Of a DNA stretch of 64,000 nt, positions 2,949-40,599 are shown in pieces. Numbering within the stretch: the stretch's first letter is position 1; each line of letters starts with the position of its first letter. Made by a program: the position numbers and the translations under genes. The notes under the pieces were generated by a model. That model saw only the letters and a list, made by a program, of their open reading frames with translations, was not told where the DNA came from and made no database searches. This DNA comes from Odiellus spinosus (lineage: Eukaryota; Arthropoda; Arachnida; Opiliones; Phalangiidae), in the NCBI GenBank assembly GCA_963920705.1, contig CAWUCO010000097.1:186001-250000 (forward strand), given 5' to 3'.

Positions 2949-3219
2949 ATGTTTTTTGAATTTGCCATATTTTCCATGTTTTTCAACGGATTTTCCAAAA
3001 CTCTTGTTTTTTACATAGACCAATATTTGCTCTTTCGAGTGGTCTTAATTTTGTCTAAATCGCTTAAAAATCTAAAGTTTTGTGTCCATTTGAATTCCAA
3101 TAATCTTGGATTTTTAAGTTCTTTTGCTTAATTTTAACCAATTTTATATTTGTCACGTTTTCGCAATTTAGACAAAACCAAAGTCATTCGAAAGAGCAAT
3201 TAATGGACAGTCTAAATAA

Positions 3220-8850: not shown

Positions 8851-8903
8851 GGATTTTTAAGTTCTTTTGCTTAATTTTAACCAATTTTATATTTGTCACA
8901 ATT

Positions 8904-11900
8904 TTGCAATTTAGACAAAACCAAAGTCATTCGAAAGAGCAATTAATGGACAGTCTAAATAATAAGAGTTTTCAAAAATCCGTTGAAAAACAAGAAAAAT
9001 ATGGCCAATTCAACAAATCATACAATATCAAAATAGTCAAATTTCAGATTTTAAAAATTCGATTTTTGATATTAGATGTTTTTTGAATTGGCCATATTTT
9101 CCAGGTTTTTCAACGGATTTTCCAAAACTCTTGTTTTTTAGATAGACCAATATTTGCTCTTTCGAGTGGTCTTATTTTTGTCTAAATCGCTTAAAAATCA
9201 ATTGTTTTGTGTCCATTTGAATCCAAGAATGTTTGATTTTTAAGCGTTTTAGCTTCATTTCAACCCATTTTATATTTGTCACGTTTTGGCAATTTAGACA
9301 AAACCAGTCATTCGAAAGAGCAATTAATGGACAGTCTTAATAATAAGAGTTTTCAGAAATCCGTTGAAAAACAAGAAAAATATGGCCAATTCAAAAAATC
9401 ATACAATATCAAAATAGTCAAATTTCAGATTTTAAAAATTCGCTTTTTGATATTAGATGTTTTTTGAATTGGCCATATTTTCCATGTTTTTCAACGGATT
9501 TTCCAAAACTCTTGTTTTTTAGGTAGAGCAATATTTGCTCTTTCGAGTGGTCTTAATTTTGTCTAAATCGCTTAAAAATCAAAAGTTTTGTGTCCATTTG
9601 AATCCAATAATCTTGGATTTTTAAGCGTTTTTGCTTAATTTTAACCAATTTCATATTTGTCACGTTTTCGCAATTTAGACAAAACCAAAGTCATTCGAAA
9701 GAGCAATTAATGGACAGTCTAAATAATAAGAGTTTTCAAAAATCCGTTGAAAAACAAGAAAAATATGGCCAATTCAACAAATCATACAATATCAAAATAG
9801 TCAAATTTCAGATTTTAAAAATTCGATTTTTGATATTAGATGTTTTTTGAATTGGCCATATTTTCCAGGTTTTTCAACGGATTTTCCAAAACTCTTGTTT
9901 TTTAGATAGACCAATATTTGCTCTTTCGAGTGGTCTTATTTTTGTCTAAATCGCTTAAAAATCAATTGTTTTGTGTCCATTTGAATCCAATAATGTTTGA
10001 ATTTTAAGCGTTTTAGCTTCATTTCAACCCATTTTATATTTGTCACGTTTTGGCAATTTAGACAAAACCAGTCATTCGAAAGAGCAATTAATGGACACTC
10101 TTAATAATAAGAGTTTTCAGAAATCCGTTGAAAAACAAGAAAAATATGGCCAATTCAAGAAATCATACAATATCAAAATAGTCAAATTTCAGATTTTAAA
10201 AATTCGCTTTTTGATATTAGATGTTTTTTGAATTGGCCATATTTTCCAGGTTTTTCAACGGATTTTCCAAAACTCTTGTTTTTTAGATAGACCAATATTT
10301 GCTTTTTCGAGTAGTCTTAATTTTGTCTAAATCGCTTGAAAATCAAAAGTTTTGTGTCCATTTGAATCCAATAATCTTGGATTTTTAAGCGTTTTTGCTT
10401 AATTTTAACCAATTTTATATTTGTCACGTTTTCGCAATTTAGACAAAACCAAAGTCATTCGAAAGAGCAATTAATGGACAGTCTAAATAATAAGAGTTTT
10501 CAAAAATCCGTTGAAAAACAAGAAAAATATGGCCAATTCAAGAAATCATACATTATCAAAATAGTCAAATTTCAGATTTTAAAAATTCGCTTTTTGATAT
10601 TAGATGTTTTTTGAATTGGCAATATTTTCCATGTTTTTCAACGGATTTTCCAAAACTCTTGTTTTTTAGATAGACCAATATTTGCTCTTTCGAGTGGTCT
10701 TAATTTTGTCTAAATCGCTTAAAAATCAAATGTTTTGTGTCCATTTGAATCCAATAATGTTTGATTTTTAAGCGTTTTAGCTTCATTTCAACCTATTTTA
10801 TATTTGTCACGTTTTAGCAATTTAGACAAAACCAGTAATTCGAAAGAGCAATTAATGGACAGTCTAAATAATAAGAGTTTTCAAAAATCCTTTGAAAAAC
10901 AAGAAAAATATGGCCAATTCAAGAAACCATACAATATCAAAATTGTCAAATTTCAGATTTTAAAAATTCGCTTTTTGATATTAGATGTTTTTTGAATTGT
11001 CCATATTTTCCAGGTTTTTCAACGGATTTTCCAAAACTCTTGTTTTTTAGATAGACCAATATTTGCTTTTTCGAGTAGTCTTAATTTTGTCTAAATCGCT
11101 TGAAAATCAAAAGTTTTGTGTCCATTTGAATCCAATAATCTTGGATTTTTAAGCGTTTTTGCTTAATTTTAACCAATTTTATATTTGTCACGTTTTGGCA
11201 ATTTAGACAAAACCAAAGTCATTCGAAAGAGCAATTAATGGACAATCTTAATAATAAGAGTTTTCAAAAATCCGTTGAAAAACAAGAAAAATATGGCCAA
11301 TTCAAGAGATCATACAATATGAAAATAGTCAAATTTCAGATTTTAAAAATTCGCTTTTTGATATTAGATGTTTTTTGAATTGGCCATATTTTCCAGGTTT
11401 TTCAACGGATTTTCCAAAACTCTTGTTTTTTAGATAGACCAATATTTGCTCTTTCGAGTGGTCTTATTTTTGTCTAAATCGCTTAAAAATCAATTGTTTT
11501 GTGTCCATTTGAATCCAATAATGTTTGATTTTTAAGCGTTTTAGCTTCATTTCAACCCATTTTATATTTGTCACGTTTTAGCAATTTAGACAAAACCAGT
11601 CATTCGAAAGAGCAATTAATGGACAGTCTAAATAATAAGAGTTTTCAAAAATTCTTTGAAAAACAAGAAAAATATGGCCAATTCAAGAGATCATACAATA
11701 TGAAAATAGTCAAATTTCAGATTTTAAAAATTCGCTTTTTGATATTAGATGTTTTTTGAATTGGCCATATTTTCCATGTTTTTCAACGGATTTTCCAAAA
11801 CTCTTGTTTTTTACATAGACCAATATTTGCTCTTTCGAGTGGTCTTAATTTTGTCTAAATCGCTTAAAAATCAAAAGTTTTGTGTCCATTTGAATTCCAA

Positions 11901-14900
11901 TAATCTTGGATTTTTAAGTTCTTTTGCTTAATTTTAACCAATTTTATATTTGTCACGTTTTCGCAATTTAGACAAAACCAAAGTCATTCGAAAGAGCAAT
12001 TAATGGACAGTCTAAATAATAAGAGTTTTCAAAAATCCGTTGAAAAACAAGAAAAATATGGCCAATTCAAGAGATCATACAATATGAAAATAGTCAAATT
12101 TCAGATTTTAAAAATTCGCTTTTTGATATTAGATGTTTTTTGAATTGGCCATATTTTCCATGTTTTTCAACGGATTTTCCAAAACTCTTGTTTTTTACAT
12201 AGACCAATATTTGCTCTTTCGAGTGGTCTTAATTTTGTCTAAATCGCTTAAAAATCAAAAGTTTTGTGTCCATTTGAATTCCAATAATCTTGGATTTTTA
12301 AGTGTTTTTGCTTAATTTTAACCAATTTTATATTTGTCACAATTTTGCAATTTAGACAAAACCAAAGTCATTCGAAAGAGCAATTAATGGACAGTCTAAA
12401 TAATAAGAGTTTTCAAAAATCCGTTGAAAAACAAGAAAAATATGGCCAATTCAAGAAATCATACAATATCAAAATAGTCAAATTTCAGATTTTAAAAATT
12501 CGCTTTTTGATATTAGATGTTTTTTGAATTGGCCATATTTTCCATGTTTTTCAACGGATTTTCCAAAACTCTTGTTTTTTACATAGACCAATATTTGCTC
12601 TTTCGAGTGGTCTTAATTTTGTCTAAATCGCTTAAAAATCAAAAGTTTTGTGTCCATTTGAATTCCAATAATCTTGGATTTTTAAGTTCTTTTGCTTAAT
12701 TTTAACCAATTTTATATTTGTCACGTTTTCGCAATTTAGACAAAACCAAAGTCATTCGAAAGAGCAATTAATGGACAGTATAAATAATAAGAGTTTTCAA
12801 AAATCCGTTGAAAAACAAGAAAAATATGGCCAATTCAAGAGATCATACAATATGAAAATAGTCAAATTTCAGATTTTAAAAATTCGCTTTTTGATATTAG
12901 ATGTTTTTTGAATTGGCCATATTTTCCATGTTTTTCAACGGATTTTCCAAAACTCTTGTTTTTTACATAGACCAATATTTGCTTTTTCGAGTAGTCTTAA
13001 TTTTGTCTAAATCGCTTGAAAATCAAAAGTTTTGTGTCCATTTGAATCCAATAATCTTGGATTTTTAAGCGTTTTTGCTTAATTTTAACCAATTTTATAT
13101 TTGTCACGTTTTGGCAATTTAGACAAAACCAAAGTCATTCGAAAGAGCAATTAATGGACAATCTTAATAATAAGAGTTTTCAAAAATCCGTTGAAAAACA
13201 AGAAAAATATGGCCAATTCAAGAGATCATACAATATGAAAATAGTCAAATTTCAGATTTTAAAAATTCGCTTTTTGATATTAGATGTTTTTTGAATTGGC
13301 CATATTTTCCATGTTTTTCAACGGATTTTCCAAAACTCTTGTTTTTTACATAGACCAATATTTGCTCTTTCGAGTGGTCTTAATTTTGTCTAAATCGCTT
13401 AAAAATCAAAAGTTTTGTGTCCATTTGAATTCCAATAATCTTGGATTTTTAAGTTCTTTTTCTTAATTTTAACCAATTTTATATTTGTCACAATTTTGCA
13501 ATTTAGACAAAACCAAAGTCATTCGAAAGAGCAATTAATGGACAGTCTAAATAATAAGAATTTTCAAAAATCCGTTGAAAAACAAAAATATGGCCAATTC
13601 AAGAAATCATACAATATCAAAATAGTCAAATTTCAGATTTTAAAAATTCGCTTTTTGATATTAGATGTTTTTTGAATTGGCCATATTTTCCATGTTTTTC
13701 AACGGATTTTCCAAAACTCTTGTTTTTTACATAGACCAATATTTGCTCTTTCGAGTGGTCTTAATTTTGTCTAAATCGCTTAAAAATCAAAAGTTTTGTG
13801 TCCATTTGAATTCCAATAATCTTGGATTTTTAAGTTCTTTTTCTTAATTTTAACCAATTTTATATTTGTCACAATTTTGCAATTTAGACAAAACCAAAGT
13901 CATTCGAAAGAGCAATTAATGGACAGTCTAAATAATAAGAATTTTCAAAAATCCGTTGAAAAACAAAAATATGGCCAATTCAAGAAATCATACAATATCA
14001 AAATAGTCAAATTTCAGATTTTAAAAATTCGCTTTTTGATATTAGATGTTTTTTGAATTGGCTATATTTTCCATGTTTTTCAACGGATTTTCCAAAAATC
14101 TTGTTTTTTAGATAGACCAATAATTGCTCTTTCGAGTGGTCTTAATTTTGTCTAAATCGCTTAAAAATCAAAAGTTTTGTGTCCATTTGAATTCCAATAA
14201 TCTTGGATTTTTAAGTGTTTTTGCTTAATTTTAACCAATTTTATATTTGTCACAATTTTGCAATTTAGACAAAACCAAAGTCATTCGAAAGAGCAATTAA
14301 TGGACAGTCTAAATAATAAGAGTTTTCAAAAATCCGTTGAAAAACAAGAAAAATATGGCCAATTCAAGAAATCATACAATATCAAAATAGTCAAATTTCA
14401 GATTTTAAAAATTCGCTTTTTGATATTAGATGTTTTTTGAATTGGCCATATTTTCCAGGTTTTTCAACGGATTTTCCAAAACTCTTGTTTTTTAGATAGA
14501 CCAATATTTGCTCTTTCGAGTGGTCTTATTTTCGTCTAAATCGCTTAAAAATCAAATGTTTTGTGTCCATTTGAATCCAATAATGTTTGATTTTTAAGCG
14601 TTTTACCTTCATTTCAACCCATTTTATATTTGTCACGTTTTAGCAATTTAGACAAAACCAGTCATTCGAAAGAGCATTTAATGGACAGATTTAATAATAA
14701 GAGTTTTCAGAAATCCGTTGAAAAACAAGAAAAATATGGCCAATTCAAGAAATCATACAATATCAAAATAGTCAAATTTCAGATTTTAAAAATTCGCTTT
14801 TTGATATTAGATGTTTTTTGAATTGGCCATATTTTCCAGGTTTTTCAACGGATTTTCCAAAACTCTTGTTTTTTAGATAGACCAATATTTGCTTTTTCGA

Positions 14901-17900
14901 GTAGTCTTAATTTTGTCTAAATCGCTTGAAAATCAAAAGTTTTGTGTCCATTTGAATCCAATAATCTTGGATTTTTAAGCGTTTTTGCTTAATTTTAACC
15001 AATTTTATATTTGTCACGTTTTCGCAATTTAGACAAAACCAAAGTCATTCGAAAGAGCAATTAATGGACAGTCTAAATAATAAGAGTTTTCAAAAATCCG
15101 TTGAAAAACAAGAAAAATATGGCCAATTCAACAAATCATACAATATCAAAATAGTCAAATTTCAGATTTTAAAAATTCGATTTTTGATATTAGATGTTTT
15201 TTGAATTGGCCATATTTTCCAGGTTTTTCAACGGATTTTCCAAAACTCTTGTTTTTTAGATAGACCAATATTTGCTCTTTCGGGTGGTCTTATTTTTGTC
15301 TAAATCGCTTAAAAATCAATTGTTTTGTGTCCATTTGAATCCAATAATGTTTGATTTTTAAGCGTTTTAGCTTCATTTCAACCCATTTTATATTTGTCAC
15401 GTTTTGGCAATTTAGACAAAACCAGTCATTCGAAAGAGCAATTAATGGACAGTCTTAATAATAAGAGTTTTCAGAAATCCGTTGAAAAACAAGAAAAATA
15501 TGGCCAATTCAAGAAACCATACAATATCAAAATTGTCAAATTTCAGATTTTAAAAATTCGCTTTTTGATATTAGATGTTTTTTGAATTGGCCATATTTTC
15601 CATGTTTTTCAACGGATTTTCCAAAACTCTTGTTTTTTAGGTAGAGCAATATTTGCTCTTTCGAGTGGTCTTAATTTTGTCTAAATCGCTTAAAAATCAA
15701 AAGTTTTGTGTCCATTTGAATCCAATAATCTTGGATTTTTAAGGGTTTTTGCTTAATTTTAACCAATTTCATATTTGTCACGTTTTCGCAATTTAGACAA
15801 AACCAAAGTCATTCGAAAGAGCAATTAATGGACAGTCTAAATAATAAGAATTTTCAAAAATCCTTTGAAAAACATGAAAAATATGGCCAATTCAAGAAAC
15901 CATACAATATCAAAATTGTCAAATTTCAGATTTTAAAAATTCGCTTTTTGATATTAGATGTTTTTTGAATTGTCCATATTTTCCATGTTTTTCAACGGAT
16001 TTTCCAAAACTCTTGTTTTTTAGATAGACCAATATTTGCTCTTTCGAGTGGTCTTAATTTTGTCTAAATCGCTTAAAAATCAAAAGTTTTGTGTCCATTT
16101 GAATTCCAATAATCTTGGATTTTTAAGCGTTTTTGCTTAATTTTAACCAATTTTATATTTGTCACGTTTTCGCAATTTAGACAAAACCAAAGTCATACGA
16201 AAGAGCAATTAATGGACAGTCTAAATAATAAGAGTTTTCAAAAATCCGTTGAAAAACAAGAAAAATATGGCCAATTCAAGAAATCATACAATATCAAAAT
16301 AGTCAAATTTCAGATTTTAAAAATTCGCTTTTTGATATTAGATGTTTTTTGAATTGGCCATATTTTCCAGGTTTTTCAACGGATTTTCCAAAACTCTTGT
16401 TTTTTAGATAGACCAATATTTGCTTTTTCGAGTAGTCTTAATTTTGTCTAAATCGCTTGAAAATCAAAAGTTTTGTGTCCATTTGAATCCAATAATCTTG
16501 GATTTTTAAGCGTTTTTGCTTAATTTTAACCAATTTTATATTTGTCACGTTTTCGCAATTTAGACAAAACCAAAGTCATTCGAAAGAGCAATTAATGGAC
16601 AGTCTAAATAATAAGAGTTTTCAAAAATCCGTTGAAAAACAAGAAAAATATGGCCAATTCAACAAATCATACAATATCAAAATAGTCAAATTTCAGATTT
16701 TAAAAATTCGATTTTTGATATTAGATGTTTTTTGAATTGGCCATATTTTCCAGGTTTTTCAACGGATTTTCCAAAACTCTTGTTTTTTAGATAGACCAAT
16801 ATTTGCTCTTTCGGGTGGTCTTATTTTTGTCTAAATCGCTTAAAAATCAATTGTTTTGTGTCCATTTGAATCCAATAATGTTTGATTTTTAAGCGTTTTA
16901 GCTTCATTTCAACCCATTTTATATTTGTCACGTTTTGGCAATTTAGACAAAACCAGTCATTCGAAAGAGCAATTAATGGACAGTCTTAATAATAAGAGTT
17001 TTTAGAAATCCGTTGAAAAACAAGAAAAATATGGCCAATTCAAAAAATCATACAATATCAAAATAGTCAAATTTCAGATTTTAAAAATTCGCTTTTTGAT
17101 ATTAGATGTTTTTTGAATTGGCCATATTTTCCATGTTTTTCAACGGATTTTCCAAAACTCTTGTTTTTTAGGTAGAGCAATATTTGCTCTTTCGAGTGGT
17201 CTTAATTTTGTCTAAATCGCTTAAAAATCAAAAGTTTTGTGTCCATTTGAATCCAATAATCTTGGATTTTTAAGCGTTTTTGCTTAATTTTAACCAATTT
17301 TATATTTGTCACGTTTTCGCAATTTAGACAAAACCAAAGTCATTCGAAAGAGCAATTAATGGACAGTCTAAAAAATAAGAGTTTTCAAAAATCCGTTGAA
17401 AAACAAGAAAAATATGGCCAATTCAAGAAATCATACAATATCAAAATAGTCAAATTTCAGATTTTAAAAATTCGCTTTTTGATATTAGATGTTTTTTGAA
17501 TTGGCCATATTTTCCAGGTTTTTGCAAAGGATTTTCCAAAACTCTTGTTTTTTAGATAGACCAATATTTGCTCTTTCGAGTGGTCTTATTTTTGTCTAAA
17601 TCGCTTAAAAATCAAATGTTTTGTGTCCATTTGAATCCAATAATGTTTGATTTTTAAGCGTTTTAGCTTCATTTCAACCCATTTTATATTTGTCACGTTT
17701 TGGCAATTTAGACAAAACCAGTTATTCGAAAGAGCAATTAATGGACAGTCTTAATAATAAGAGTTTTCAGAAATCCGTTGAAAAACAAGAAAAATATGGT
17801 CAATTCAAGAAATCATACAATATCAAAATAGTCAAATTTCAGATTTTAAAAATTCGCTTTTTGATACTAGATGTTTTTTGAATTGGCCATATTTTCCAGG

Positions 17901-18571
17901 TTTTTCAACGGATTTTCCAAAACTTGTTTTTTAGATAGACCAATATTTGCTTTTTCGAGTAGTCTTAATTTTGTCTAAATCGCTTGAAAATCAAAAGTTT
18001 TGTGTCCATTTGAATCCAATAATCTTGGATTTTTAAGCGTTTTTGCTTAATTTTAACCAATTTTATATTTGTCACGTTTTCGCAATTTAGACAAAACCAA
18101 AGTCATTCGAAAGAGCAATTAATGGACAGTCTAAATAATAAGAGTTTTCAAAAATCCGTTGAAAAACAAGAAAAATATGGCCAATTCAACAAATCATACA
18201 ATATCAAAATAGTCAAATTTCAGATTTTAAAAATTCGATTTTTGATATTAGATGTTTTTTGAATTGGCCATATTTTCCAGGTTTTTCAACGGATTTTCCA
18301 AAACTCTTGTTTTTTAGATAGACCAATATTTGCTCTTTCGAGTGGTCTTATTTTTGTCTAAATCGCTTAAAAATCAATTGTTTTGTGTCCATTTGAATCC
18401 AATAATGTTTGATTTTTAAGCGTTTTAGCTTCATTTCAACCCATTTTATATTTGTCACGTTTTGGCAATTTAGACAAAACCAGTCATTCGAAAGAGCAAT
18501 TAATGGACAGTCTTAATAATAAGAGTTTTCAGAAATCCGTTGAAAAACAAGAAAAATATGGCCAATTCAAA
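8904..18571 (+). repeat. Satellite zone of 764-765 bp dimers with a monomeric run inside
   Basis: Dimer landmarks fall at 9,276, 10,040, 10,804, 11,568, 14,630, 15,394, 16,925, 17,690 and 18,452, that is 764-765 bp or multiples apart (762 where a CTC deletion gives AAAACTTG). Many copies carry CGTTTTGGCAATTTAG plus ACCAGTCATTCG. Between about 11,749 and 13,850 the dimer pattern is replaced by consecutive ACATAGACC-type monomers spaced about 384 bp. The copy at 16,925 has a GAGTTTTTAGAAATC change also seen at 38,041 and 39,571. No gene is seen. Confidence 0.85.
9525..9541 (+). repeat. 17-bp dyad AGAGCAAtatTTGCTCT (variant monomers)
   Basis: Monomers with GGTAGAGC in place of GATAGACC gain exact 7-bp inverted arms around TAT. 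The same dyad recurs at about 15.64, 17.17, 18.70, 20.61, 22.14, 24.44, 25.21 and 25.59 kb and at many later sites in the left array, and near 58.44 kb on the right. Confidence 0.8.
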
Positions 18572-21500
18572 AAATCATACAATATCAAAATAGTCAAATT
18601 TCAGATTTTAAAAATTCGCTTTTTGATATTAGATGTTTTTTGAATTGGCCATATTTTCCATGTTTTTCAACGGATTTTCCAAAACTCTTGTTTTTTAGGT
18701 AGAGCAATATTTGCTCTTTCGAGTGGTCTTAATTTTGTCTAAATCGCTTAAAAATCAAAAGTTTTGTGTCCATTTGAATCCAATAATCTTGGATTTTTAA
18801 GCGTTTTTGCTTAATTTTAACCAATTTCATATTTGTCACGTTTTCGCAATTTAGACAAAACCAAAGTCATTCGAAAGAGCAATTAATGGACAGTCTAAAT
18901 AATAAGAGTTTTCAAAAATCCGTTGAAAAACAAGAAAAATATGGCCAATTCAAGAAATCATACATTATCAAAATAGTCAAATTTCAGATTTTAAAAATTC
19001 GCTTTTTGATATTAGATGTTTTTTGAATTGGCCATATTTTCCATGTTTTTCAACGGATTTTCCAAAACCCTTGTTTTTTAGATAGACCAATATTTGCTCT
19101 TTTGATACGTGTTGATTTTGTCTAAATAGCTTAAAAATCAAAATTTTGTGTCCATTTGAATCCAATAATCTTGGATTTTGAAGCGTTTTTGCTTAATTTT
19201 AACCAATTTTATATTTGTCACGTTTTCGCAATTTAGACAAAACCAAAGTCATTCGAAAGAGCAATTAATGGACAGTCTAAAAAATAAGAGTTTTCAAAAA
19301 TCCGTTGAAAAACAAGAAAAATATGGCCAATTCAAGAAATCATACAATATCAAAATAGTCAAATTTCAGATTTTAAAAATTCGCTTTTTGATATTAGATG
19401 TTTTTTGAATTGGCCATATTTTCCAGGTTTTTGCAAATGATTTTCCAAAACTCTTGTTTTTTAGATAGACCAATATTTGCTCTTTCGAGTGGTCTTATTT
19501 TTGTCTAAATCGCTTAAAAATCAAATGTTTTGTGTCCATTTGAATCCAATAATGTTTGATTTTTAAGCGTTTTAGCTTCATTTCAACCCATTTTATATTT
19601 GTCACGTTTTGGCAATTTAGACAAAACCAGTTATTCGAAAGAGCAATTAATGGACAGTCTTAATAATAAGAGTTTTCAGAAATCCGTTGAAAAACAAGAA
19701 AAATATGGTCAATTCAAGAAATCATACAATATCAAAATAGTCAAATTTCAGATTTTAAAAATTCGCTTTTTGATATTAGATGTTTTTTGAATTGGCCATA
19801 TTTTCCAGGTTTTTCAACGGATTTTCCAAAACTTGTTTTTTAGATAGACCAATATTTGCTTTTTCGAGTAGTCTTAATTTTGTCTAAATCGCTTGAAAAT
19901 CAAAAGTTTTGTGTCCATTTGAATCCAATAATCTTGGATTTTTAAGCGTTTTTGCTTAATTTTAACCAATTTTATATTTGTCACGTTTTGGCAATTTAGA
20001 CAAAACCAAAGTCATTCGAAAGAGCAATTAATAGACAATCTTAATAATAAGAGTTTTCAAAAATTCGTTGAAAAACAAGAAAAATATGGCCAATTCAAGA
20101 AATCATACATTATCAAAATAGTCAAATTTCAGATTTTAAAAATTCGCTTTTTGATATTAGATGTTTTTTGAATTGGCCATATTTTCCATGTTTTTCAACG
20201 GATTTTCCAAAACCCTTGTTTTTTAGATAGACCAATATTTGCTCTTTCGATACGTGTTGATTTTGTCTAAATAGCTTAAAAATCAAAATTTTTTGTCCAT
20301 TTGAATCCAATAATCTTGGATTTTTAAGCGTTTTTGCTTAGTTTTAACCAATTTTATATTTGTCACGTTTTGGCAATTTAGACAAAACCAAAGTCATTCG
20401 AAAGAGCAATTAATAGACAATCTTAATAATAAGAGTTTTCAAAAATCCGTTGAAAAACAAGAAAAATATGGCCAATTCAAGAAATCATACAATATCAAAA
20501 TAGTCAAATTTCAGATTTTAAAAATTCGCTTTTTGATATTAGATGTTTTTTGAATTGGCCATATTTTCCATGTTTTTCAACGGATTTTCCAAAACTCTTG
20601 TTTTTTAGGTAGAGCAATATTTGCTCTTTCGAGTGGTCTTAATTTTGTCTAAATCGCTTAAAAATCAAAAGTTTTGTGTCCATTTGAATCCAATAATCTT
20701 GGATTTTTAAGCGTTTTTGCTTAATTTTAACCAATTTTATATTTGTCACGTTTTCGCAATTTAGACAAAACCAAAGTCATTCGAAAGAGCAATTAATGGA
20801 CAGTCTAAATAATAAGAGTTTTCAAAAATCCGTTGAAAAACAAGAAAAATATGGCCAATTCAAGAAATCATACATTATCAAAATAGTCAAATTTCAGATT
20901 TTAAAAATTCGCTTTTTGATAATAGATGTTTTTTTAATTGGCCATATTTTCCATGTTTTTCAACGGATTTTCCAAAACCCTTGTTTTTTAGATAGACCAA
21001 TATTTGCTCTTTCGAGTGGTCTTAATTTTGTCTAAATCGCTTAAAAATCATAAGTTTTGTGTCCATTTGAATCCAATAATCTTGGATTTTTAAGCGTTTT
21101 TGCTTAATTTTAACCAATTTTATATTTGTCACGTTTTCGGAATTTAGACAAAACCAAAGTCATTCGAAAGAGCAATTAATGGACAGTCTAAATAATAAGA
21201 GTTTTCAAAAATCCGTTGAAAAACAAGAAAAATATGGCCAATTCAAGAAATCATACATTATCAAAATAGTCAAATTTCAGATTTTAAAAATTCGCTTTTT
21301 GATATTAGATGTTTTTTGAATTGGCCATATTTTCCATGTTTTTCAACGGATTTTCCAAAACCCTTGTTTTTTAGATAGACCAATATTTGCTCTTTCGATA
21401 CGTGTTGATTTTGTCTAAATAGCTTAAAAATCAAAAGTTTTGTGTCCATTTGAATCCAATAATCTTGGATTTTTAAGCGTTTTTGCTTAATTTTAACCAA

Positions 21501-22670
21501 TTTTATATTTGTCACGTTTTCGCAATTTAGACAAAACCAAAGTCATTCGAAAGAGCAATTAATGGACAGTCTAAATAATAAGAGTTTTCAAAAATCCGTT
21601 GAAAAACAAGAAAAATATGGCCAATTCAAGAAATCATACATTATCAAAATAGTCAAATTTCAGATTTTAAAAATTCGCTTTTTGATAATAGATGTTTTTT
21701 GAATTGGCCATATTTTCCATGTTTTTCAACGGATTTTCCAAAACCCTTGTTTTTTAGATAGACCAATATTTACTCTTTCGATACGTGTTGATTTTGTCTA
21801 AATAGCTTAAAAATCAAAAGTTTTGTGTCCATTTGAATCCAATAATCTTGAATTTTTAAGCGTTTTTGCTTAATTTTAACCAATTTTATATTTGTCACGT
21901 TTTGGCAATTTAGACATAACCAAAGTCATTCGAAAGAGCAATTAATAGACAATCTTAATAATAAGAGTTTTCAAAAATCCGTTGAAAAACAAGAAAAATA
22001 TGGCCAATTCAAGAAATCATACAATATCAAAATAGTCAAATTTCAGATTTTAAAAATTCGCTTTTTGATATTAGATGTTTTTTGAATTGGCCATATTTTC
22101 CATGTTTTTCAACGAATTTTCCAAAACTCTTGTTTTTTAGGTAGAGCAATATTTGCTCTTTCGATACGTGTTGATTTTGTCTAAATAGCTTAAAAATCAA
22201 AAGTTTTGTGTCCATTTGAATCCAATAATCTTGGATTTTTAAGCGTTTTTGCTTAATTTTAACCAATTTTATATTTGTCACGTTTTCGCAATTTAGACAA
22301 AACCAAAGTCATTCGAAAGAGCAATTAATGGACAGTCTAAATAATAAGAGTTTTCAAAAATCCGTTGAAAAACAAGAAAAATATGGCCAATTCAAGAAAT
22401 CATACATTATCAAAATAGTCAAATTTCAGATTTTAAAAATTCGCTTTTTGATAATAGATGTTTTTTGAATTGGCCATATTTTCCATGTTTTTCAACGGAT
22501 TTTCCAAAACCCTTGTTTTTTAGATAGACCAATATTTGCTCTTTCGAGTGGTCTTAATTTTGTCTAAATCGCTTAAAAATCATAAGTTTTGTGACCATTT
22601 GAATCCTATAATCTTGGATTTTTAAGCGTTTTTGCTTAATTTTAACCAATTTTATATTTGTCACGTTTTC

Positions 22671-22782
22671 GCAATTTAGACAAAACCAAAGTCATTCGAA
22701 AGAGCAATTAATGGACAGTCTAAATAATAAGAGTTTTCAAAAATCCGTTGAAAAACAAGAAAAATATGGCCAATTCAAGAAA
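22671..22782 (+). repeat. Left palindrome arm of reference monomer
   Basis: Pairs with 22,844-22,955 in inverted orientation. The 21 mismatches cluster in two places: positions 21-25 of the arm (GTCAT against ACGTA) and positions 41-48. The tip-proximal half is the better conserved. It contains TTCGAA and TGGCCA sites. Confidence 0.93.
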
Positions 22783-22843
22783 TCATACATTATCAAAATA
22801 GTCAAATTTCAGATTTTAAAAATTCGCTTTTTGATATTAGATG
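22783..22843 (+). repeat. Centre of the monomer palindrome
   Basis: A 61-bp, very A+T-rich centre between the arms. The dyad continues inside it: TATCAAAA on the left faces TTTTGATA on the right, and CAAATTT faces AAATTCG with small offsets. A hairpin could therefore extend nearly to a short loop around CAGATTTTAA. Copies differ here mainly in ACATTATC versus ACAATATC versus ACAATATG, and GATATTAG versus GATAATAG. Confidence 0.85.
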
Positions 22844-22955
22844 TTTTTTGAATTGGCCATATTTTCCATGTTTTTCAACGGATTTTCCAAAACCCTTGTT
22901 TTTTAGATAGACCAATATTTGCTCTTTCGATACGTGTTGATTTTGTCTAAATAGC
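22844..22955 (-). repeat. Right palindrome arm of reference monomer
   Basis: Inverted copy of the left arm. Its distal third holds the main diagnostic variants of the array: AGATAGACC, ACATAGACC or AGGTAGAGC, followed by CGAGTGGTCTTAATTTTG or CGATACGTGTTGATTTTG. Confidence 0.93.
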
Positions 22956-23010
22956 TTAAAAATCAAAAGTTTTGTGTCCATTTGAATCCAATAATCTTGG
23001 ATTTTTAAGC
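22954..23010 (+). repeat. Secondary dyad in the monomer spacer
   Basis: GCTTAAAAATC at the start and GATTTTTAAGC at the end are exact 11-bp inverted repeats, separated by about 35 bp of spacer. Monomers of the GTTTGATTTTTAAGC type keep the same arms. Variants with GATTTTGAAGC (for example 19,168, 52,081 and 59,686) break one pair. Confidence 0.8.
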
Positions 23011-25460
23011 GTTTTTGCTTAATTTTAACCAATTTTATATTTGTCACGTTTTCGCAATTTAGACAAAACCAAAGTCATTCGAAAGAGCAATTAATGGACA
23101 GTCTAAATAATAAGAGTTTTCAAAAATCCGTTGAAAAACAAGAAAAATATGGCCAATTCAAGAAATCATACATTATCAAAATAGTCAAATTTCAGATTTT
23201 AAAAATTCGCTTTTTGATAATAGATGTTTTTTGAATTGGCCATATTTTCCATGTTTTTCAACGGATTTTCCAAAACCCTTGTTTTTTAGATAGACCAATA
23301 TTTGCTCTTTCGAGTGGTCTTAATTTTGTCTAAATCGCTTAAAAATCATAAGTTTTGTGACCATTTGAATCCTATAATCTTGGATTTTTAAGCGTTTTTG
23401 CTTAATTTTAACCAATTTTATATTTGTCACGTTTTCGCAATTTAGACAAAACCAAAGTCATTCGAAAGAGCAATTAATGGACAGTCTAAATAATAAGAGT
23501 TTTCAAAAATCCGTTGAAAAACAAGAAAAATATGGCCAATTCAAGAAATCATACATTATCAAAATAGTCAAATTTCAGATTTTAAAAATTCGCTTTTTGA
23601 TATTAGATGTTTTTTGAATTGGCCATATTTTCCATGTTTTTCAACGGATTTTCCAAAACCCTTGTTTTTTAGATAGACCAATATTTGCTCTTTCGATACG
23701 TGTTGATTTTGTCTAAATAGCTTAAAAATCAAAAGTTTTGTGTCCATTTGAATCCAATAATCTTGGATTTTTAAGCGTTTTTGCTTAATTTTAACCAATT
23801 TTATATTTGTCACGTTTTCGCAATTTAGACAAAACCAAAGTCATTCGAAAGAGCAATTAATGGACAGTCTAAATAATAAGAGTTTTCAAAAATCCGTTGA
23901 AAAACAAGAAAAATATGGCCAATTCAAGAAATCATACATTATCAAAATAGTCAAATTTCAGATTTTAAAAATTCGCTTTTTGATAATAGATGTTTTTTGA
24001 ATTGGCCATATTTTCCATGTTTTTCAACGGATTTTCCAAAACCCTTGTTTTTTAGATAGACCAATATTTACTCTTTCGATACGTGTTGATTTTGTCTAAA
24101 TAGCTTAAAAATCAAAAGTTTTGTGTCCATTTGAATCCAATAATCTTGAATTTTTAAGCGTTTTTGCTTAATTTTAACCAATTTTATATTTGTCACGTTT
24201 TGGCAATTTAGACATAACCAAAGTCATTCGAAAGAGCAATTAATAGACAATCTTAATAATAAGAGTTTTCAAAAATCCGTTGAAAAACAAGAAAAATATG
24301 GCCAATTCAAGAAATCATACAATATCAAAATAGTCAAATTTCAGATTTTAAAAATTCGCTTTTTGATATTAGATGTTTTTTGAATTGGCCATATTTTCCA
24401 TGTTTTTCAACGAATTTTCCAAAACTCTTGTTTTTTAGGTAGAGCAATATTTGCTCTTTCGATACGTGTTGATTTTGTCTAAATAGCTTAAAAATCAAAA
24501 GTTTTGTGTCCATTTGAATCCAATAATCTTGGATTTTTAAGCGTTTTTGCTTAATTTTAACCAATTTTATATTTGTCACGTTTTCGCAATTTAGACAAAA
24601 CCAAAGTCATTCGAAAGAGCAATTAATGGACAGTCTAAATAATAAGAGTTTTCAAAAATCCGTTGAAAAACAAGAAAAATATGGCCAATTCAAGAAATCA
24701 TACATTATCAAAATAGTCAAATTTCAGATTTTAAAAATTCGCTTTTTGATAATAGATGTTTTTTGAATTGGCCATATTTTCCATGTTTTTCAACGGATTT
24801 TCCAAAACCCTTGTTTTTTAGATAGACCAATATTTACTCTTTCGATACGTGTTGATTTTGTCTAAATAGCTTAAAAATCAAAAGTTTTGTGTCCATTTGA
24901 ATCCAATAATCTTGAATTTTTAAGCGTTTTTGCTTAATTTTAACCAATTTTATATTTGTCACGTTTTGGCAATTTAGACATAACCAAAGTCATTCGAAAG
25001 AGCAATTAATAGACAATCTTAATAATAAGAGTTTTCAAAAATCCGTTGAAAAACAAGAAAAATATGGCCAATTCAAGAAATCATACAATATCAAAATAGT
25101 CAAATTTAGGATTTTAAAAATTCGCTTTTTGATATTAGATGTTTTTTGAATTGGCCATATTTTCCATGTTTTTCAACGAATTTTCCAAAACTCTTGTTTT
25201 TTAGGTAGAGCAATATTTGCTCTTTCGAGTGGTCTTAATTTTGTCTAAATCGCTTAAAAATCAAAGGTTTTGTGTCCATTTGAATCCAATAATCTTGGAT
25301 TTTTAAGCGTTTTTGCTTAATTTTAACCAGTTTTATATTTGTCACGTTTTCGCAATTTAGACAAAACCAAAGTCATTCGAAAGAGCAATTAATGGACAGT
25401 CTAAATAATAAGAGTTTTCAAAAATCCGTTGAAAAACAAGAAAAATATGGCCAATTCAAG

Positions 25461-28400
25461 AAATCATACAATATCAAAATAGTCAAATTTCAGATTTTAA
25501 AAATTCGCTTTTTGATATTAGATGTTTTTTGAATTGGCCATATTTTCCATGTTTTTCAACGGATTTTCCAAAACTCTTGTTTTTTAGGTAGAGCAATATT
25601 TGCTCTTTCGAGTGGTCTTAATTTTGTCTAAATCGCTTAAAAATCAAAAGTTTTGTGTCCATTTGAATCCAATAATCTTGGATTTTTAAGCGTTTTTGCT
25701 TAATTTTAACCAATTTCATATTTGTCACGTTTTCGCAATTTAGACAAAACCAAAGTCATTCGAAAGAGCAATTAATGGACAGTCTAAATAATAAGAGTTT
25801 TCAAAAATCCGTTGAAAAACAAGAAAAATATGGCCAATTCAAGAAATCATACATTATCAAAATAGTCAAATTTCAGATTTTAAAAATTCGCTTTTTGATA
25901 TTAGATGTTTTTTGAATTGGCCATATTTTCCATGTTTTTCAACGGATTTTCCAAAACCCTTGTTTTTTAGATAGACCAATATTTGCTCTTTTGATACGTG
26001 TTGATTTTGTCTAAATAGCTTAAAAATCAAAATTTTGTGTCCATTTGAATCCAATAATCTTGGATTTTGAAGCGTTTTTGCTTAATTTTAACCAATTTTA
26101 TATTTGTCACGTTTTCGCAATTTAGACAAAACCAAAGTCATTCGAAAGAGCAATTAATGGACAGTCTAAAAAATAAGAGTTTTCAAAAATCCGTTGAAAA
26201 ACAAGAAAAATATGGCCAATTCAAGAAATCATACAATATCAAAATAGTCAAATTTCAGATTTTAAAAATTCGCTTTTTGATATTAGATGTTTTTTGAATT
26301 GGCCATATTTTCCAGGTTTTTGCAAATGATTTTCCAAAACTCTTGTTTTTTAGATAGACCAATATTTGCTCTTTCGAGTGGTCTTATTTTTGTCTAAATC
26401 GCTTAAAAATCAAATGTTTTGTGTCCATTTGAATCCAATAATGTTTGATTTTTAAGCGTTTTAGCTTCATTTCAACCCATTTTATATTTGTCACGTTTTG
26501 GCAATTTAGACAAAACCAGTTATTCGAAAGAGCAATTAATGGACAGTCTTAATAATAAGAGTTTTCAGAAATCCGTTGAAAAACAAGAAAAATATGGTCA
26601 ATTCAAGAAATCATACAATATCAAAATAGTCAAATTTCAGATTTTAAAAATTCGCTTTTTGATATTAGATGTTTTTTGAATTGGCCATATTTTCCAGGTT
26701 TTTCAACGGATTTTCCAAAACTTGTTTTTTAGATAGACCAATATTTGCTTTTTCGAGTAGTCTTAATTTTGTCTAAATCGCTTGAAAATCAAAAGTTTTG
26801 TGTCCATTTGAATCCAATAATCTTGGATTTTTAAGCGTTTTTGCTTAATTTTAACCAATTTTATATTTGTCACGTTTTGGCAATTTAGACAAAACCAAAG
26901 TCATTCGAAAGAGCAATTAATAGACAATCTTAATAATAAGAGTTTTCAAAAATTCGTTGAAAAACAAGAAAAATATGGCCAATTCAAGAAATCATACATT
27001 ATCAAAATAGTCAAATTTCAGATTTTAAAAATTCGCTTTTTGATATTAGATGTTTTTTGAATTGGCCATATTTTCCATGTTTTTCAACGGATTTTCCAAA
27101 ACCCTTGTTTTTTAGATAGACCAATATTTGCTCTTTCGATACGTGTTGATTTTGTCTAAATAGCTTAAAAATCAAAATTTTTTGTCCATTTGAATCCAAT
27201 AATCTTGGATTTTTAAGCGTTTTTGCTTAGTTTTAACCAATTTTATATTTGTCACGTTTTGGCAATTTAGACAAAACCAAAGTCATTCGAAAGAGCAATT
27301 AATAGACAATCTTAATAATAAGAGTTTTCAAAAATCCGTTGAAAAACAAGAAAAATATGGCCAATTCAAGAAATCATACAATATCAAAATAGTCAAATTT
27401 CAGATTTTAAAAATTCGCTTTTTGATATTAGATGTTTTTTGAATTGGCCATATTTTCCATGTTTTTCAACGGATTTTCCAAAACTCTTGTTTTTTAGGTA
27501 GAGCAATATTTGCTCTTTCGAGTGGTCTTAATTTTGTCTAAATCGCTTAAAAATCAAAAGTTTTGTGTCCATTTGAATCCAATAATCTTGGATTTTTAAG
27601 CGTTTTTGCTTAATTTTAACCAATTTTATATTTGTCACGTTTTCGCAATTTAGACAAAACCAAAGTCATTCGAAAGAGCAATTAATGGACAGTCTAAATA
27701 ATAAGAGTTTTCAAAAATCCGTTGAAAAACAAGAAAAATATGGCCAATTCAAGAAATCATACATTATCAAAATAGTCAAATTTCAGATTTTAAAAATTCG
27801 CTTTTTGATAATAGATGTTTTTTTAATTGGCCATATTTTCCATGTTTTTCAACGGATTTTCCAAAACCCTTGTTTTTTAGATAGACCAATATTTGCTCTT
27901 TCGAGTGGTCTTAATTTTGTCTAAATCGCTTAAAAATCATAAGTTTTGTGTCCATTTGAATCCAATAATCTTGGATTTTTAAGCGTTTTTGCTTAATTTT
28001 AACCAATTTTATATTTGTCACGTTTTCGGAATTTAGACAAAACCAAAGTCATTCGAAAGAGCAATTAATGGACAGTCTAAATAATAAGAGTTTTCAAAAA
28101 TCCGTTGAAAAACAAGAAAAATATGGCCAATTCAAGAAATCATACATTATCAAAATAGTCAAATTTCACATTTTAAAAATTCGCTTTTTGATATTAGATG
28201 TTTTTTGAATTGGCCATATTTTCCATGTTTTTCAACGGATTTTCCAAAACCCTTGTTTTTTAGATAGACCAATATTTGCTCTTTCGATACGTGTTGATTT
28301 TGTCTAAATAGCTTAAAAATCAAAAGTTTTGTGTCCATTTGAATCCAATAATCTTGGATTTTTAAGCGTTTTTGCTTAATTTTAACCAATTTTATATTTG

Positions 28401-31400
28401 TCACGTTTTCGCAATTTAGACAAAACCAAAGTCATTCGAAAGAGCAATTAATGGACAGTCTAAATAATAAGAGTTTTCAAAAATCCGTTGAAAAACAAGA
28501 AAAATATGGCCAATTCAAGAAATCATACATTATCAAAATAGTCAAATTTCAGATTTTAAAAATTCGCTTTTTGATAATAGATGTTTTTTGAATTGGCCAT
28601 ATTTTCCATGTTTTTCAACGGATTTTCCAAAACCCTTGTTTTTTAGATAGACCAATATTTACTCTTTCGATACGTGTTGATTTTGTCTAAATAGCTTAAA
28701 AATCAAAAGTTTTGTGTCCATTTGAATCCAATAATCTTGAATTTTTAAGCGTTTTTGCTTAATTTTAACCAATTTTATATTTGTCACGTTTTGGCAATTT
28801 AGACATAACCAAAGTCATTCGAAAGAGCAATTAATAGACAATCTTAATAATAAGAGTTTTCAAAAATCCGTTGAAAAACAAGAAAAATATGGCCAATTCA
28901 AGAAATCATACAATATCAAAATAGTCAAATTTCAGATTTTAAAAATTCGCTTTTTGATATTAGATGTTTTTTGAATTGGCCATATTTTCCATGTTTTTCA
29001 ACGAATTTTCCAAAACTCTTGTTTTTTAGGTAGAGCAATATTTGCTCTTTCGATACGTGTTGATTTTGTCTAAATAGCTTAAAAATCAAAAGTTTTGTGT
29101 CCATTTGAATCCAATAATCTTGGATTTTTAAGCGTTTTTGCTTAATTTTAACCAATTTTATATTTGTCACGTTTTCGCAATTTAGACAAAACCAAAGTCA
29201 TTCGAAAGAGCAATTAATGGACAGTCTAAATAATAAGAGTTTTCAAAAATCCGTTGAAAAACAAGAAAAATATGGCCAATTCAAGAAATCATACATTATC
29301 AAAATAGTCAAATTTCAGATTTTAAAAATTCGCTTTTTGATAATAGATGTTTTTTGAATTGGCCATATTTTCCATGTTTTTCAACGGATTTTCCAAAACC
29401 CTTGTTTTTTAGATAGACCAATATTTGCTCTTTCGAGTGGTCTTAATTTTGTCTAAATCGCTTAAAAATCATAAGTTTTGTGACCATTTGAATCCTATAA
29501 TCTTGGATTTTTAAGCGTTTTTGCTTAATTTTAACCAATTTTATATTTGTCACGTTTTCGCAATTTAGACAAAACCAAAGTCATTCGAAAGAGCAATTAA
29601 TGGACAGTCTAAATAATAAGAGTTTTCAAAAATCCGTTGAAAAACAAGAAAAATATGGCCAATTCAAGAAATCATACATTATCAAAATAGTCAAATTTCA
29701 GATTTTAAAAATTCGCTTTTTGATATTAGATGTTTTTTGAATTGGCCATATTTTCCATGTTTTTCAACGGATTTTCCAAAACCCTTGTTTTTTAGATAGA
29801 CCAATATTTGCTCTTTCGATACGTGTTGATTTTGTCTAAATAGCTTAAAAATCAAAAGTTTTGTGTCCATTTGAATCCAATAATCTTGGATTTTTAAGCG
29901 TTTTTGCTTAATTTTAACCAATTTTATATTTGTCACGTTTTCGCAATTTAGACAAAACCAAAGTCATTCGAAAGAGCAATTAATGGACAGTCTAAATAAT
30001 AAGAGTTTTCAAAAATCCGTTGAAAAACAAGAAAAATATGGCCAATTCAAGAAATCATACATTATCAAAATAGTCAAATTTCAGATTTTAAAAATTCGCT
30101 TTTTGATAATAGATGTTTTTTGAATTGGCCATATTTTCCATGTTTTTCAACGGATTTTCCAAAACCCTTGTTTTTTAGATAGACCAATATTTGCTCTTTC
30201 GAGTGGTCTTAATTTTGTCTAAATCGCTTAAAAATCATAAGTTTTGTGACCATTTGAATCCTATAATCTTGGATTTTTAAGCGTTTTTGCTTAATTTTAA
30301 CCAATTTTATATTTGTCACGTTTTCGCAATTTAGACAAAACCAAAGTCATTCGAAAGAGCAATTAATGGACAGTCTAAATAATAAGAGTTTTCAAAAATC
30401 CGTTGAAAAACAAGAAAAATATGGCCAATTCAAGAAATCATACATTATCAAAATAGTCAAATTTCAGATTTTAAAAATTCGCTTTTTGATATTAGATGTT
30501 TTTTGAATTGGCCATATTTTCCATGTTTTTCAACGGATTTTCCAAAACCCTTGTTTTTTAGATAGACCAATATTTGCTCTTTCGATACGTGTTGATTTTG
30601 TCTAAATAGCTTAAAAATCAAAAGTTTTGTGTCCATTTGAATCCAATAATCTTGGATTTTTAAGCGTTTTTGCTTAATTTTAACCAATTTTATATTTGTC
30701 ACGTTTTCGCAATTTAGACAAAACCAAAGTCATTCGAAAGAGCAATTAATGGACAGTCTAAATAATAAGAGTTTTCAAAAATCCGTTGAAAAACAAGAAA
30801 AATATGGCCAATTCAAGAAATCATACATTATCAAAATAGTCAAATTTCAGATTTTAAAAATTCGCTTTTTGATAATAGATGTTTTTTGAATTGGCCATAT
30901 TTTCCATGTTTTTCAACGGATTTTCCAAAACCCTTGTTTTTTAGATAGACCAATATTTACTCTTTCGATACGTGTTGATTTTGTCTAAATAGCTTAAAAA
31001 TCAAAAGTTTTGTGTCCATTTGAATCCAATAATCTTGAATTTTTAAGCGTTTTTGCTTAATTTTAACCAATTTTATATTTGTCACGTTTTGGCAATTTAG
31101 ACATAACCAAAGTCATTCGAAAGAGCAATTAATAGACAATCTTAATAATAAGAGTTTTCAAAAATCCGTTGAAAAACAAGAAAAATATGGCCAATTCAAG
31201 AAATCATACAATATCAAAATAGTCAAATTTCAGATTTTAAAAATTCGCTTTTTGATATTAGATGTTTTTTGAATTGGCCATATTTTCCATGTTTTTCAAC
31301 GAATTTTCCAAAACTCTTGTTTTTTAGGTAGAGCAATATTTGCTCTTTCGATACGTGTTGATTTTGTCTAAATAGCTTAAAAATCAAAAGTTTTGTGTCC

Positions 31401-32349
31401 ATTTGAATCCAATAATCTTGGATTTTTAAGCGTTTTTGCTTAATTTTAACCAATTTTATATTTGTCACGTTTTCGCAATTTAGACAAAACCAAAGTCATT
31501 CGAAAGAGCAATTAATGGACAGTCTAAATAATAAGAGTTTTCAAAAATCCGTTGAAAAACAAGAAAAATATGGCCAATTCAAGAAATCATACATTATCAA
31601 AATAGTCAAATTTCAGATTTTAAAAATTCGCTTTTTGATAATAGATGTTTTTTGAATTGGCCATATTTTCCATGTTTTTCAACGGATTTTCCAAAACCCT
31701 TGTTTTTTAGATAGACCAATATTTACTCTTTCGATACGTGTTGATTTTGTCTAAATAGCTTAAAAATCAAAAGTTTTGTGTCCATTTGAATCCAATAATC
31801 TTGAATTTTTAAGCGTTTTTGCTTAATTTTAACCAATTTTATATTTGTCACGTTTTGGCAATTTAGACATAACCAAAGTCATTCGAAAGAGCAATTAATA
31901 GACAATCTTAATAATAAGAGTTTTCAAAAATCCGTTGAAAAACAAGAAAAATATGGCCAATTCAAGAAATCATACAATATCAAAATAGTCAAATTTAGGA
32001 TTTTAAAAATTCGCTTTTTGATATTAGATGTTTTTTGAATTGGCCATATTTTCCATGTTTTTCAACGAATTTTCCAAAACTCTTGTTTTTTAGGTAGAGC
32101 AATATTTGCTCTTTCGAGTGGTCTTAATTTTGTCTAAATCGCTTAAAAATCAAAGGTTTTGTGTCCATTTGAATCCAATAATCTTGGATTTTTAAGCGTT
32201 TTTGCTTAATTTTAACCAGTTTTATATTTGTCACGTTTTCGCAATTTAGACAAAACCAAAGTCATTCGAAAGAGCAATTAATGGACAGTCTAAATAATAA
32301 GAGTTTTCAAAAATCCGTTGAAAAACAAGAAAAATATGGCCAATTCAAG
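25461..32349 (+). repeat. 6,889-bp (18-monomer) segment, copy 2
   Basis: Directly adjacent duplicate of the preceding segment. Reading the two in parallel I found very few differences, for example CACATTTT at 28,168 where copy 1 has CAGATTTT at 21,279. Such near identity over 6.9 kb means either a very recent tandem duplication or exchange, or an assembly duplication. Confidence 0.88.
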
Positions 32350-34266
32350 AAATCATACATTATCAAAATAGTCAAATTTCAGATTTTAAAAATTCGCTTT
32401 TTGATATTAGATGTTTTTTGAATTGGCCATATTTTCCATGTTTTTCAAAGGATTTTCCAAAACCCTTGTTTTTTAGATAGACCAATATTTGCTCTTTCGA
32501 TACGTGTTGATTTTGTCTAAATAGCTTAAAAATCAAAAGTTTTGTGTCCATTTGAATCCAATAATCTTGGATTTTTAAGCGTTTTTGCTTAATTTTAACC
32601 AATTTTATATTTGTCACAATTTTGCAATTTAGACAAAACCAAAGTCATTCGAAAGAGCAATTAATGGACAGTCTAAATAATAAGAGTTTTCAAAAATCCG
32701 TTGAAAAACAAGAAAAATATGGCCAATTCAAGAAACCATACAATATCAAAATAGTCAAATTTCAGATTTTAAAAATTCGCTTTTTGATATTAGATGTTTT
32801 TTGAATTGGCTATATTTTCCATGTTTTTCAACGGATTTTCCAAAACTCTTGTTTTTTAGGTAGAGCAATATTTGCTCTTTCGAGTGGTCTTAATTTTGTC
32901 TAAATCGCTTAAAAATCAAAAGTTTTGTGTCCATTTGAATCCAATAATCTTGGATTTTTAAGCGTTTTTGCTTAATTTTAACCAATTTTATATTTGTCAC
33001 GTTTTCGCAATTTAGACAAAACCAAAGTCATTCGAAAGAGCAATTAATGGACAGTCTAAATAATAAGAGTTTTCAAAAATCCGTTGAAAAACAAGAAAAA
33101 TATGGCCAATTCAAGAAATCATACATTATCAAAATAGTCAAATTTCAGATTTTAAAAATTCGCTTTTTGATAATAGATGTTTTTTGAATTGGCCATATTT
33201 TCCATGTTTTTCAACGGATTTTCCAAAACCCTTGTTTTTTAGATAGACCAATATTTGCTCTTTCGATACGTGTTGATTTTGTCTAAATAGCTTAAAAATC
33301 AAAAGTTTTGTGTCCATTTGAATCCAATAATCTTGGATTTTTAAGCGTTTTTGCTTAATTTTAACCAATTTTATATTTGTCACGTTTTGGCAATTTAGAC
33401 ATAACCAAAGTCATTCGAAAGAGCAATTAATAGACAATCTTAATAATAAGAGTTTTCAAAAATCCGTTGAAAAACAAGAAAAATATGGCCAATTCAAGAA
33501 ACCATACAATATCAAAATAGTCAAATTTCAGATTTTAAAAATTCGCTTTTTGATATTAGATGTTTTTTGAATTGGCTATATTTTCCATGTTTTTCAACGG
33601 ATTTTCCAAAACTCTTGTTTTTTAGATAGACCAATAATTGCTCTTTCGAGTGGTCTTAATTTTGTCTAAATAGCTTAAAAATCAAAAGTTTTGTGTCCAT
33701 TTGAATCCAATAATTTGGATTTTTAAGCGTTTTTGCTTAATTTTAACCAATTTTATATTTGTCACAATTTTGCAATTTAGACAAAACCAAAGTCATTCGA
33801 AAGAGCAATTAATGGACAGTCTAAATAATAAGAGTTTTCAAAAATCCGTTGAAAAACAAGAAAATTATGGCCAATTCAAGAAACCATACAATATCAAAAT
33901 AGTCAAATTTCAGATTTTAAAAATTCGCTTTTTGATATTAGATGTTTTTTGAATTGGCCATATTTTCCATGTTTTTCAACGGATTTTCCAAAACTCTTGT
34001 TTTTTAGATAGACCAATATTTGCTCTTTCGAGTGGTCTTAATTTTGTCTAAATCGCTTTAAAGTCAAAAGTTTTGTGTCCATTTTAATCCAATAATTTTG
34101 GATTTTTAAGCGTTTTTGCTTAATTTTAACCAATTTTATATTTGTCACAATTTTGCAATTTAGACAAAACCTAATTCATTCGAAAGAGCAATTAATGGAA
34201 AGCGTAATAATTAGAGTTTTCAAAAATCCGTTGAAAAACAAGAAAAATATGGCCAATTCAAGAAAC
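31205..34266 (+). repeat. 3,062-bp (8-monomer) segment, copy 1
   Basis: Overlaps the end of the 6,889-bp unit and continues into new monomers. Landmarks at 31,223, 31,995, 32,372, 32,622, 33,138 and 33,701 recur 3,062 bp later. Markers include TTTTTCAAAGGATTTT, GGCTATATTTTCC, CAATAATTTGG (a one-base-pair-class deletion in the spacer) and GAAAATTATGG. Confidence 0.85.
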
Positions 34267-37200: not shown

Positions 37201-37400
37201 TATTTGTCACAATTTTGCAATTTAGACAAAACCTAATTCATTCGAAAGAGCAATTAATGGAAAGCGTAATAATTAGAGTTTTCAAAAATCCGTTGAAAAA
37301 CAAGAAAAATATGGCCAATTCAAGAAACCATACAATATCAAAATAGTCAAATTTCAGATTTTAAAAATTCGCTTTTTGATATTAGATGTTTTTTGAATTG
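34267..37400 (+). repeat. 3,062-bp (8-monomer) segment, copy 2
   Basis: Tandem duplicate of 31,205-34,266, with the same ordered markers. It includes the unusual degenerate monomer with ACCTAATTCATTCG and GGAAAGCGTAATAATTAGAG (34,170-34,215 and 37,232-37,277). The match ends near 37,400, where ATTTTTCATGTTTTTCTACGG replaces ATTTTCCATG. Confidence 0.83.
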
Positions 37401-40560: not shown

Positions 40561-40599
40561 GAAAATCAAAAGTTTTGTGTCCATTTGAATCCAATAATC

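Follow-up and report, generated by a model that had tools for sequence, protein, structure and literature searches.

Satellite monomers that contain long inverted repeats have been described in several insects. Tribolium brevicornis has a 1061-bp satellite with inverted segments of ~470 bp (Mravinac 2005, as cited in PMC13081366; title in PMC10218199), and the 385-bp satellite of Trichogramma brassicae carries 80-bp inverted repeats (Landais 2000, as cited in PMC13081366, PMC8122249). Long dyads within monomers are also reported from the wasp genera Diadromus and Eupelmus (PMC8122249). TmSat2 of Tribolium madens is described as having a palindrome-like monomer with macro-dyads, and its inverted subarrays meet at conserved inversion sites (PMC13081366). 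These accounts provide the insect precedents that the original prediction had invoked for satellites with inverted subunits (PMC13081366, PMC8122249).

A second group of systems links satellites to transposons. Tetris of Drosophila virilis is described as a non-autonomous foldback element whose long inverted repeats hold TIR-220 tandem repeats that also form satellite arrays, reaching up to 66 copies in the assembly; its target duplications are 8-10 bp and the Mutator superfamily has been suggested for it (PMC4079207). Rehavkus-1_TC of Tribolium castaneum is given as a 9.5-kb DNA transposon with the low-copy, 164-bp satellite TCsat23 in its inverted ends (PMC10218199), and the capture of tandem repeats by small transposons has been discussed (PMC12628747). 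Monomers with long dyads are on record, if uncommon, as are foldbacks that bear satellites. The combination of a palindromic satellite with a satellite-bearing foldback was not found in the literature searched, which leaves out most subscription papers.

The window analysed here is a 64,000-nucleotide stretch of the harvestman Odiellus spinosus (contig C107:186001-250000) in an assembly of 443 Mb and 286 contigs. It is occupied by a long tandem array of one monomer, the form of a satellite, in plus orientation. Tandem Repeats Finder (period 383) and BLAST tiling place 383-bp monomers at 1..52301, with the array extending past the window, and tiling with the reference monomer followed by monomer cutting recovers the array again at 56766..64000. 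The only uncovered stretch longer than 20 bp in this tiling is 52302-56765. Complete monomers, taken as every stretch of 340-420 bp from one recognised monomer start to the next, number 154 and have a mean pairwise identity of 95.8% (range 90.6-100%); one 4915-bp interval containing a retrotransposon is dropped. Mild two-monomer periodicity is present (identity 96.6% at lag 2 vs 95.9% at lag 1).

The interruption at 52302..56765 (plus strand) is a later insertion of a Copia-type LTR retrotransposon and not satellite, as identified from the BLAST gap, an open reading frame of 1360 codons (52432-56514) and Pfam matches to RVT_2, rve, copia-type gag and zinc-knuckle. Inspection by eye shows a truncated left long terminal repeat that meets the satellite inside a TTTTTGATAT word common to both, and to the right of the element the satellite restarts ~65 bp upstream in the monomer. 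The shortened left repeat and the upstream restart suggest a deletion after the insertion.

The reference monomer (22671..23053, plus strand; consensus register 22669-23051) is a palindrome followed by a spacer. Its left arm (22671..22782, plus) and its inverted right arm (22844..22955, minus) are each 112 bp long, and a recount of the ungapped pairing gives the originally predicted 91 of 112 matches. The consensus of the 154 window monomers gives 93/112, and the arm match per monomer averages 80.2% (range 73.9-83.9%, n=154), against a background over all axes of the same consensus of 31% (sd 5%). Just one further axis scores high (75%): it is the mirror axis, displaced by half a period and sharing the same arms, which puts the axes 191.5 bp apart within the 383-bp period. 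In gapped alignment to its own reverse complement, the 285-bp block scores 281, a value reached by none of 500 dinucleotide shuffles (mean -116, sd 25, maximum -16); arms no better than shuffled sequence, the outcome that would have spoken against a dyad, were thus not found. Folding prediction agrees: the 285-bp strand reaches -74.9 kcal/mol (z -15.1), lower than all 200 shuffles, and a 383-bp register gives z -12.8.

Symmetry weakens towards the centre and is lost in the spacer. The 61-bp centre (22783..22843) holds a weak gapped dyad in the consensus, its global score being equalled by 2/500 shuffles and its local score by 17/500, which bears out, weakly, the expectation that the dyad runs on through the middle. 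No dyad was detected in the consensus of the 98-bp spacer (22956..23053), where 242/500 shuffles did as well globally and 179/500 locally. Alignment of the whole monomer to its reverse complement yields 284 identities over 369 columns, which come from the 285-bp block; self-complementarity of the part outside it is no better than in shuffles. Two inverted subunits therefore make up most of the monomer (285/383 bp) without covering all of it, and the 383-bp unit is an inverted pair of ~142 bp with a 98-bp spacer. The original prediction that every monomer is a ~285-bp palindrome holds for the dyad, which is found in all 154 complete monomers down to the lowest arm match of 73.9%, and fails for the unit length, which is 383 bp with 98 bp lacking a dyad. 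Because the spacer shows no dyad beyond shuffles, derivation from two ~190-bp subunits by inverted duplication, which had also been proposed, is unsupported.

The satellite is abundant genome-wide. An exact 31-base left-arm word is present in 30,602 forward and 29,281 reverse copies, 59,883 in all, and has 127 occurrences in the window against 154 complete monomers; if this ratio is typical, the genome total is estimated at ~73,000 monomers, 28 Mb or roughly 6% of the assembly. Sampling of C107 in 20 pieces of 10 kb found the satellite in plus orientation in 13 (between 1 and 1.13 Mb), in minus orientation in five (1.32-1.73 Mb) and absent from two. Another 11 pieces of 1.5 kb from this contig, nine at 1.14-1.317 Mb, one at 1.77 Mb and one at the contig end, were free of satellite. 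The oppositely oriented arrays thus lie ~200 kb apart, with sampled pieces between them lacking satellite; C107 may be misassembled. On other contigs, 1.5-kb pieces carried minus-orientation satellite in 2/3 (C248) and 3/3 (C18) cases. An exact search with one 39-base word (two free positions) returned 0 matches in bacterial/archaeal and viral contig collections, a result of little weight because neither collection is one of insect DNA.

Several further observations concern array edges and other parts of the assembly. Borders of the C107 arrays fall at L029 8451, L028 5790 and L031 8158, corresponding to monomer columns 343, 287 and 350; close by, within the spacer and next to it, is a 12-bp inverted repeat (CGCTTAAAAATC / GATTTTTAAGCG), and the inversion centre of the element described below breaks at column 342. 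Edge monomers at L028 and L029 (C107 1.026-1.128 Mb) stand further from the consensus (mean identity 94.7% and 93.3%), have recurring deletions of ~155 bp and ~30-36 bp and show a poorer arm match (74.8%, n=29). At the start of contig C1 (L009 1-410), TCAGG/TTAGG repeats of opposite orientation meet head to head, and words of this type occur 7853 times forward and 3113 times reverse genome-wide. COX1-like matches with stops on C17 (L038 and L039, 3.1-4.4 Mb) are probably nuclear copies of mitochondrial DNA. Judged by eye, the frames of mitochondrial COX1 and its neighbours resemble those of an insect.

Outside the long arrays, the satellite is carried by a transposon. On C1-C5, where the 31-base word was located at 31 places among the matches listed, it forms seven compact clusters in which plus copies are followed by minus copies at recurring distances; the other listed places are a single copy on C1, a spread cluster of minus copies on C5 and plus copies at the start of C6. 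The inner part, read in four of the seven clusters, consists of plus monomers, a switch at a common junction and then minus monomers. This junction, from monomer column 342 to column 191 inverted, is identical in all five centres read, the fifth belonging to a copy on C16. Both copies on C2 also carry a 149-bp tandem repeat, inverted and with G/C blocks, on both sides, and the one read end to end has outer inverted repeats of 1452 bp (98.8% identical) together with a further inverted satellite part.

The ends of the element are exact (GGCTCCGTC...); all four copies read at this point begin GGCTCCGTCAACTTGGCCCC..., with the same sequence inverted on the opposite side. Its exact terminal 30-mer occurs 27 times genome-wide, of which 26 form 13 plus/minus pairs spaced by 3592-5809 bp and the last is unpaired, on C13; four of the 13 copies are exactly 5521 bp long. 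The count of 13 complete copies covers exact-ended elements only, and satellite content is established in eight of them, the seven C1-C5 clusters and the C16 copy at 8.08 Mb. Flanks were read for all 13 pairs: nine have perfect 9-bp target duplications, and the other four are imperfect: three differ at 1, 2 and 3 of the 9 positions, respectively, and the fourth is a 7-bp repeat. Copies on C3 and C5 share 99.97% identity over 3263 bp despite lying on different contigs, which indicates recent movement; the two C2 copies share 97.3% over 2372 bp.

Long inverted repeats holding tandem repeats, defined ends with target duplications and recent dispersed copies make this a non-autonomous foldback-type transposon that moved recently. 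The fetched inner part of a C2 copy has five frames of 78-104 codons, all running through satellite, whereas its fetched right end has no complete frame of at least 60 codons, and two element frames had no Pfam match above the cut-off (best E 0.066). Target duplications in the Mutator superfamily measure ~8-11 bp. Since those seen here are 9 bp in 9/13 copies, a length that fits this superfamily, the element probably belongs to it. The genome has 72 MULE matches; none among the matches listed lies inside the 13 end pairs. One element monomer contains a short hairpin-core insertion (L057 614-728) flanked by a 12-bp direct repeat of satellite sequence, which by eye looks like a small MITE.

Because the element carries several monomers in each inverted arm, the palindrome of the monomer and the fold-back of the element are two separate levels of symmetry. 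A dispersed fold-back relative, as had been anticipated, does exist, in the form of this transposon and not of a single palindromic monomer. The monomer itself may still have a MITE-like fold-back ancestry.

Arms differ from each other by 17-20%, compared with 4.2% between monomers, and the inverted duplication is therefore older than the array. The reading preferred here begins with that duplication: ~142 bp beside a 98-bp spacer would have been duplicated in inverted orientation to give the 383-bp unit, which ordinary array turnover, presumably unequal exchange and conversion, would then have amplified and kept homogeneous as one block, leaving the palindrome mainly as a relic. The element holds a satellite piece, inverted on itself, in the inner part of its inverted repeats and has moved it to other sites by transposition with 9-bp target duplication, using a putative transposase; most likely it captured existing satellite DNA once. 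This account as a whole is given a probability of roughly 60%.

The order of satellite and element is the point at which this account meets its strongest competitor, namely that the foldback transposon came first and tandem units in its inverted repeats grew into satellite arrays, the order suggested for Tetris and TIR-220. The element is built like Tetris, which is described with long inverted repeats, internal tandem repeats, target duplications of 8-10 bp and no transposase (PMC4079207), and its two C2 copies hold a second tandem repeat, of 149 bp. Against this order, neither that repeat nor the element ends (20 bases, up to 3 edits) turned up in the window or among the sampled array pieces, which are a small part of the arrays. 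Exact-ended copies are also few, with 13 complete elements set against 59,883 exact satellite words. Monomers collected from the window and 29 loci numbered 572 (two loci gave none). A tree was built from 147 distinct sampled monomers and rooted at its midpoint; in it the nine distinct monomers of the element group into a single clade among those of the arrays (support 0.73), and at its deepest split 16 monomers of the inner array edge on C107 (L028, L029) separate from all others. The polarity of the tree is weak because of midpoint rooting and the modest support of the clade. Element and array majority differ at 14 columns, where by our own reading the older state is that of the array at four (it pairs with the partner arm) and of the element at two, with neither favoured at five and no partner available at three; two of the four columns favouring the array lie in the palindrome centre, where the partner is uncertain. 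Capture of the satellite by the element is likelier than the reverse, a direction that these data resolve weakly, and a transposon-first origin is accordingly rather unlikely while being the most credible of the alternatives.

Another possibility is that the palindrome is functional, its arms forming hairpins or cruciforms that aid nucleosome positioning or mark centromeric chromatin. Functions of this kind have been suggested for dyads in satellites (PMC8122249, PMC13081366), and the 285-bp block has a strong predicted fold. Mean variant frequency at paired arm columns is also below that at mispaired columns (0.021 vs 0.048, p 0.055), a borderline hint of constraint. The 191.5-bp spacing of the axes approximates one nucleosome repeat, but any single dyad in a 383-bp period gives that spacing. 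Other comparisons speak against selected pairing. Among window monomers, partner columns show no excess mutual information (70/200 shuffles reach the observed value), and paired and mispaired arm columns vary about equally often (64/186 vs 15/38, Fisher p 0.58). Variants at mispaired columns restored pairing in 8/18 cases, with one third expected (p 0.32), and near-invariant columns (<1% variants) are as frequent in the arms as in the spacer (163/224 vs 69/96, p 0.89). The arms, moreover, have already diverged by the 17-20% noted above. One further figure weighs against the preferred account: arm match is slightly higher in element monomers (81.6%, n=17) than in the window (80.4%, n=154). A functional palindrome is thus improbable: on the basis of absent covariation and of no clear constraint in this array, the structure is apparently a relic of duplication in the main.

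Coding and structured-RNA content of the satellite was also considered. The window has 0 Rfam matches at gathering score to a ribozyme or known RNA. A peptide encoded by the monomer was rejected, as the 79-codon open stretch of the consensus is equalled in 74/300 shuffles; longer stop-free stretches occur in the window than in the consensus (29 of 90 codons, minus strand).

The element could further be imagined to plant ready-made inverted satellite blocks, with the oppositely oriented C107 arrays having grown from such a seed. This extension is highly doubtful; if true, a transposon would set the spread and orientation pattern of a major satellite. Segmental duplication or misassembly is a barely credible source of the dispersed copies, for although repeats are difficult to assemble and this assembly comprises 286 contigs, the exact ends are common to 13 places and the perfect 9-bp duplications at 9/13 differ in local sequence between sites, which contradicts segmental duplication.

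If the window is typical, a major satellite making up ~6% of the assembly is here tied to a transposon that has moved recently and whose ends and target duplications can be read. The system offers a datable, testable case of satellite DNA leaving or entering arrays. It also keeps distinct two easily confused features, palindromy of the monomer and the fold-back order in which monomers are arranged, and its absent covariation argues against presuming that pairing maintains long satellite dyads.

Likened by description, the satellite of T. brassicae is the nearest in monomer length of the systems compared, being almost equal to the present one, and it also has long inverted repeats, although its arms are 80 bp against 112 bp here. 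The T. brevicornis satellite shares the design in which two inverted subunits form most of the monomer, whereas both monomer and arms are much shorter in O. spinosus. TmSat2 resembles it in its palindrome-like monomer and in having arrays in both orientations, as found here on one contig, C107; unlike the meeting subarrays of TmSat2, the sampled opposite arrays of C107 are separated by ~200 kb, and the pieces sampled in that gap lack satellite. Rehavkus-1_TC likewise carries a satellite in the inverted ends of a DNA transposon, but that element is 9.5 kb long and its 164-bp satellite is low-copy. Tetris differs in that the satellite of O. spinosus is far larger (59,883 exact 31-mers), has a palindromic monomer and is accompanied by a 149-bp repeat that lies outside the satellite. 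Both are foldbacks whose tandem repeats are shared with satellite arrays, with target duplications within 8-10 bp and a suggested place in Mutator, and by these descriptions Tetris is the closest described case to the element reported here.
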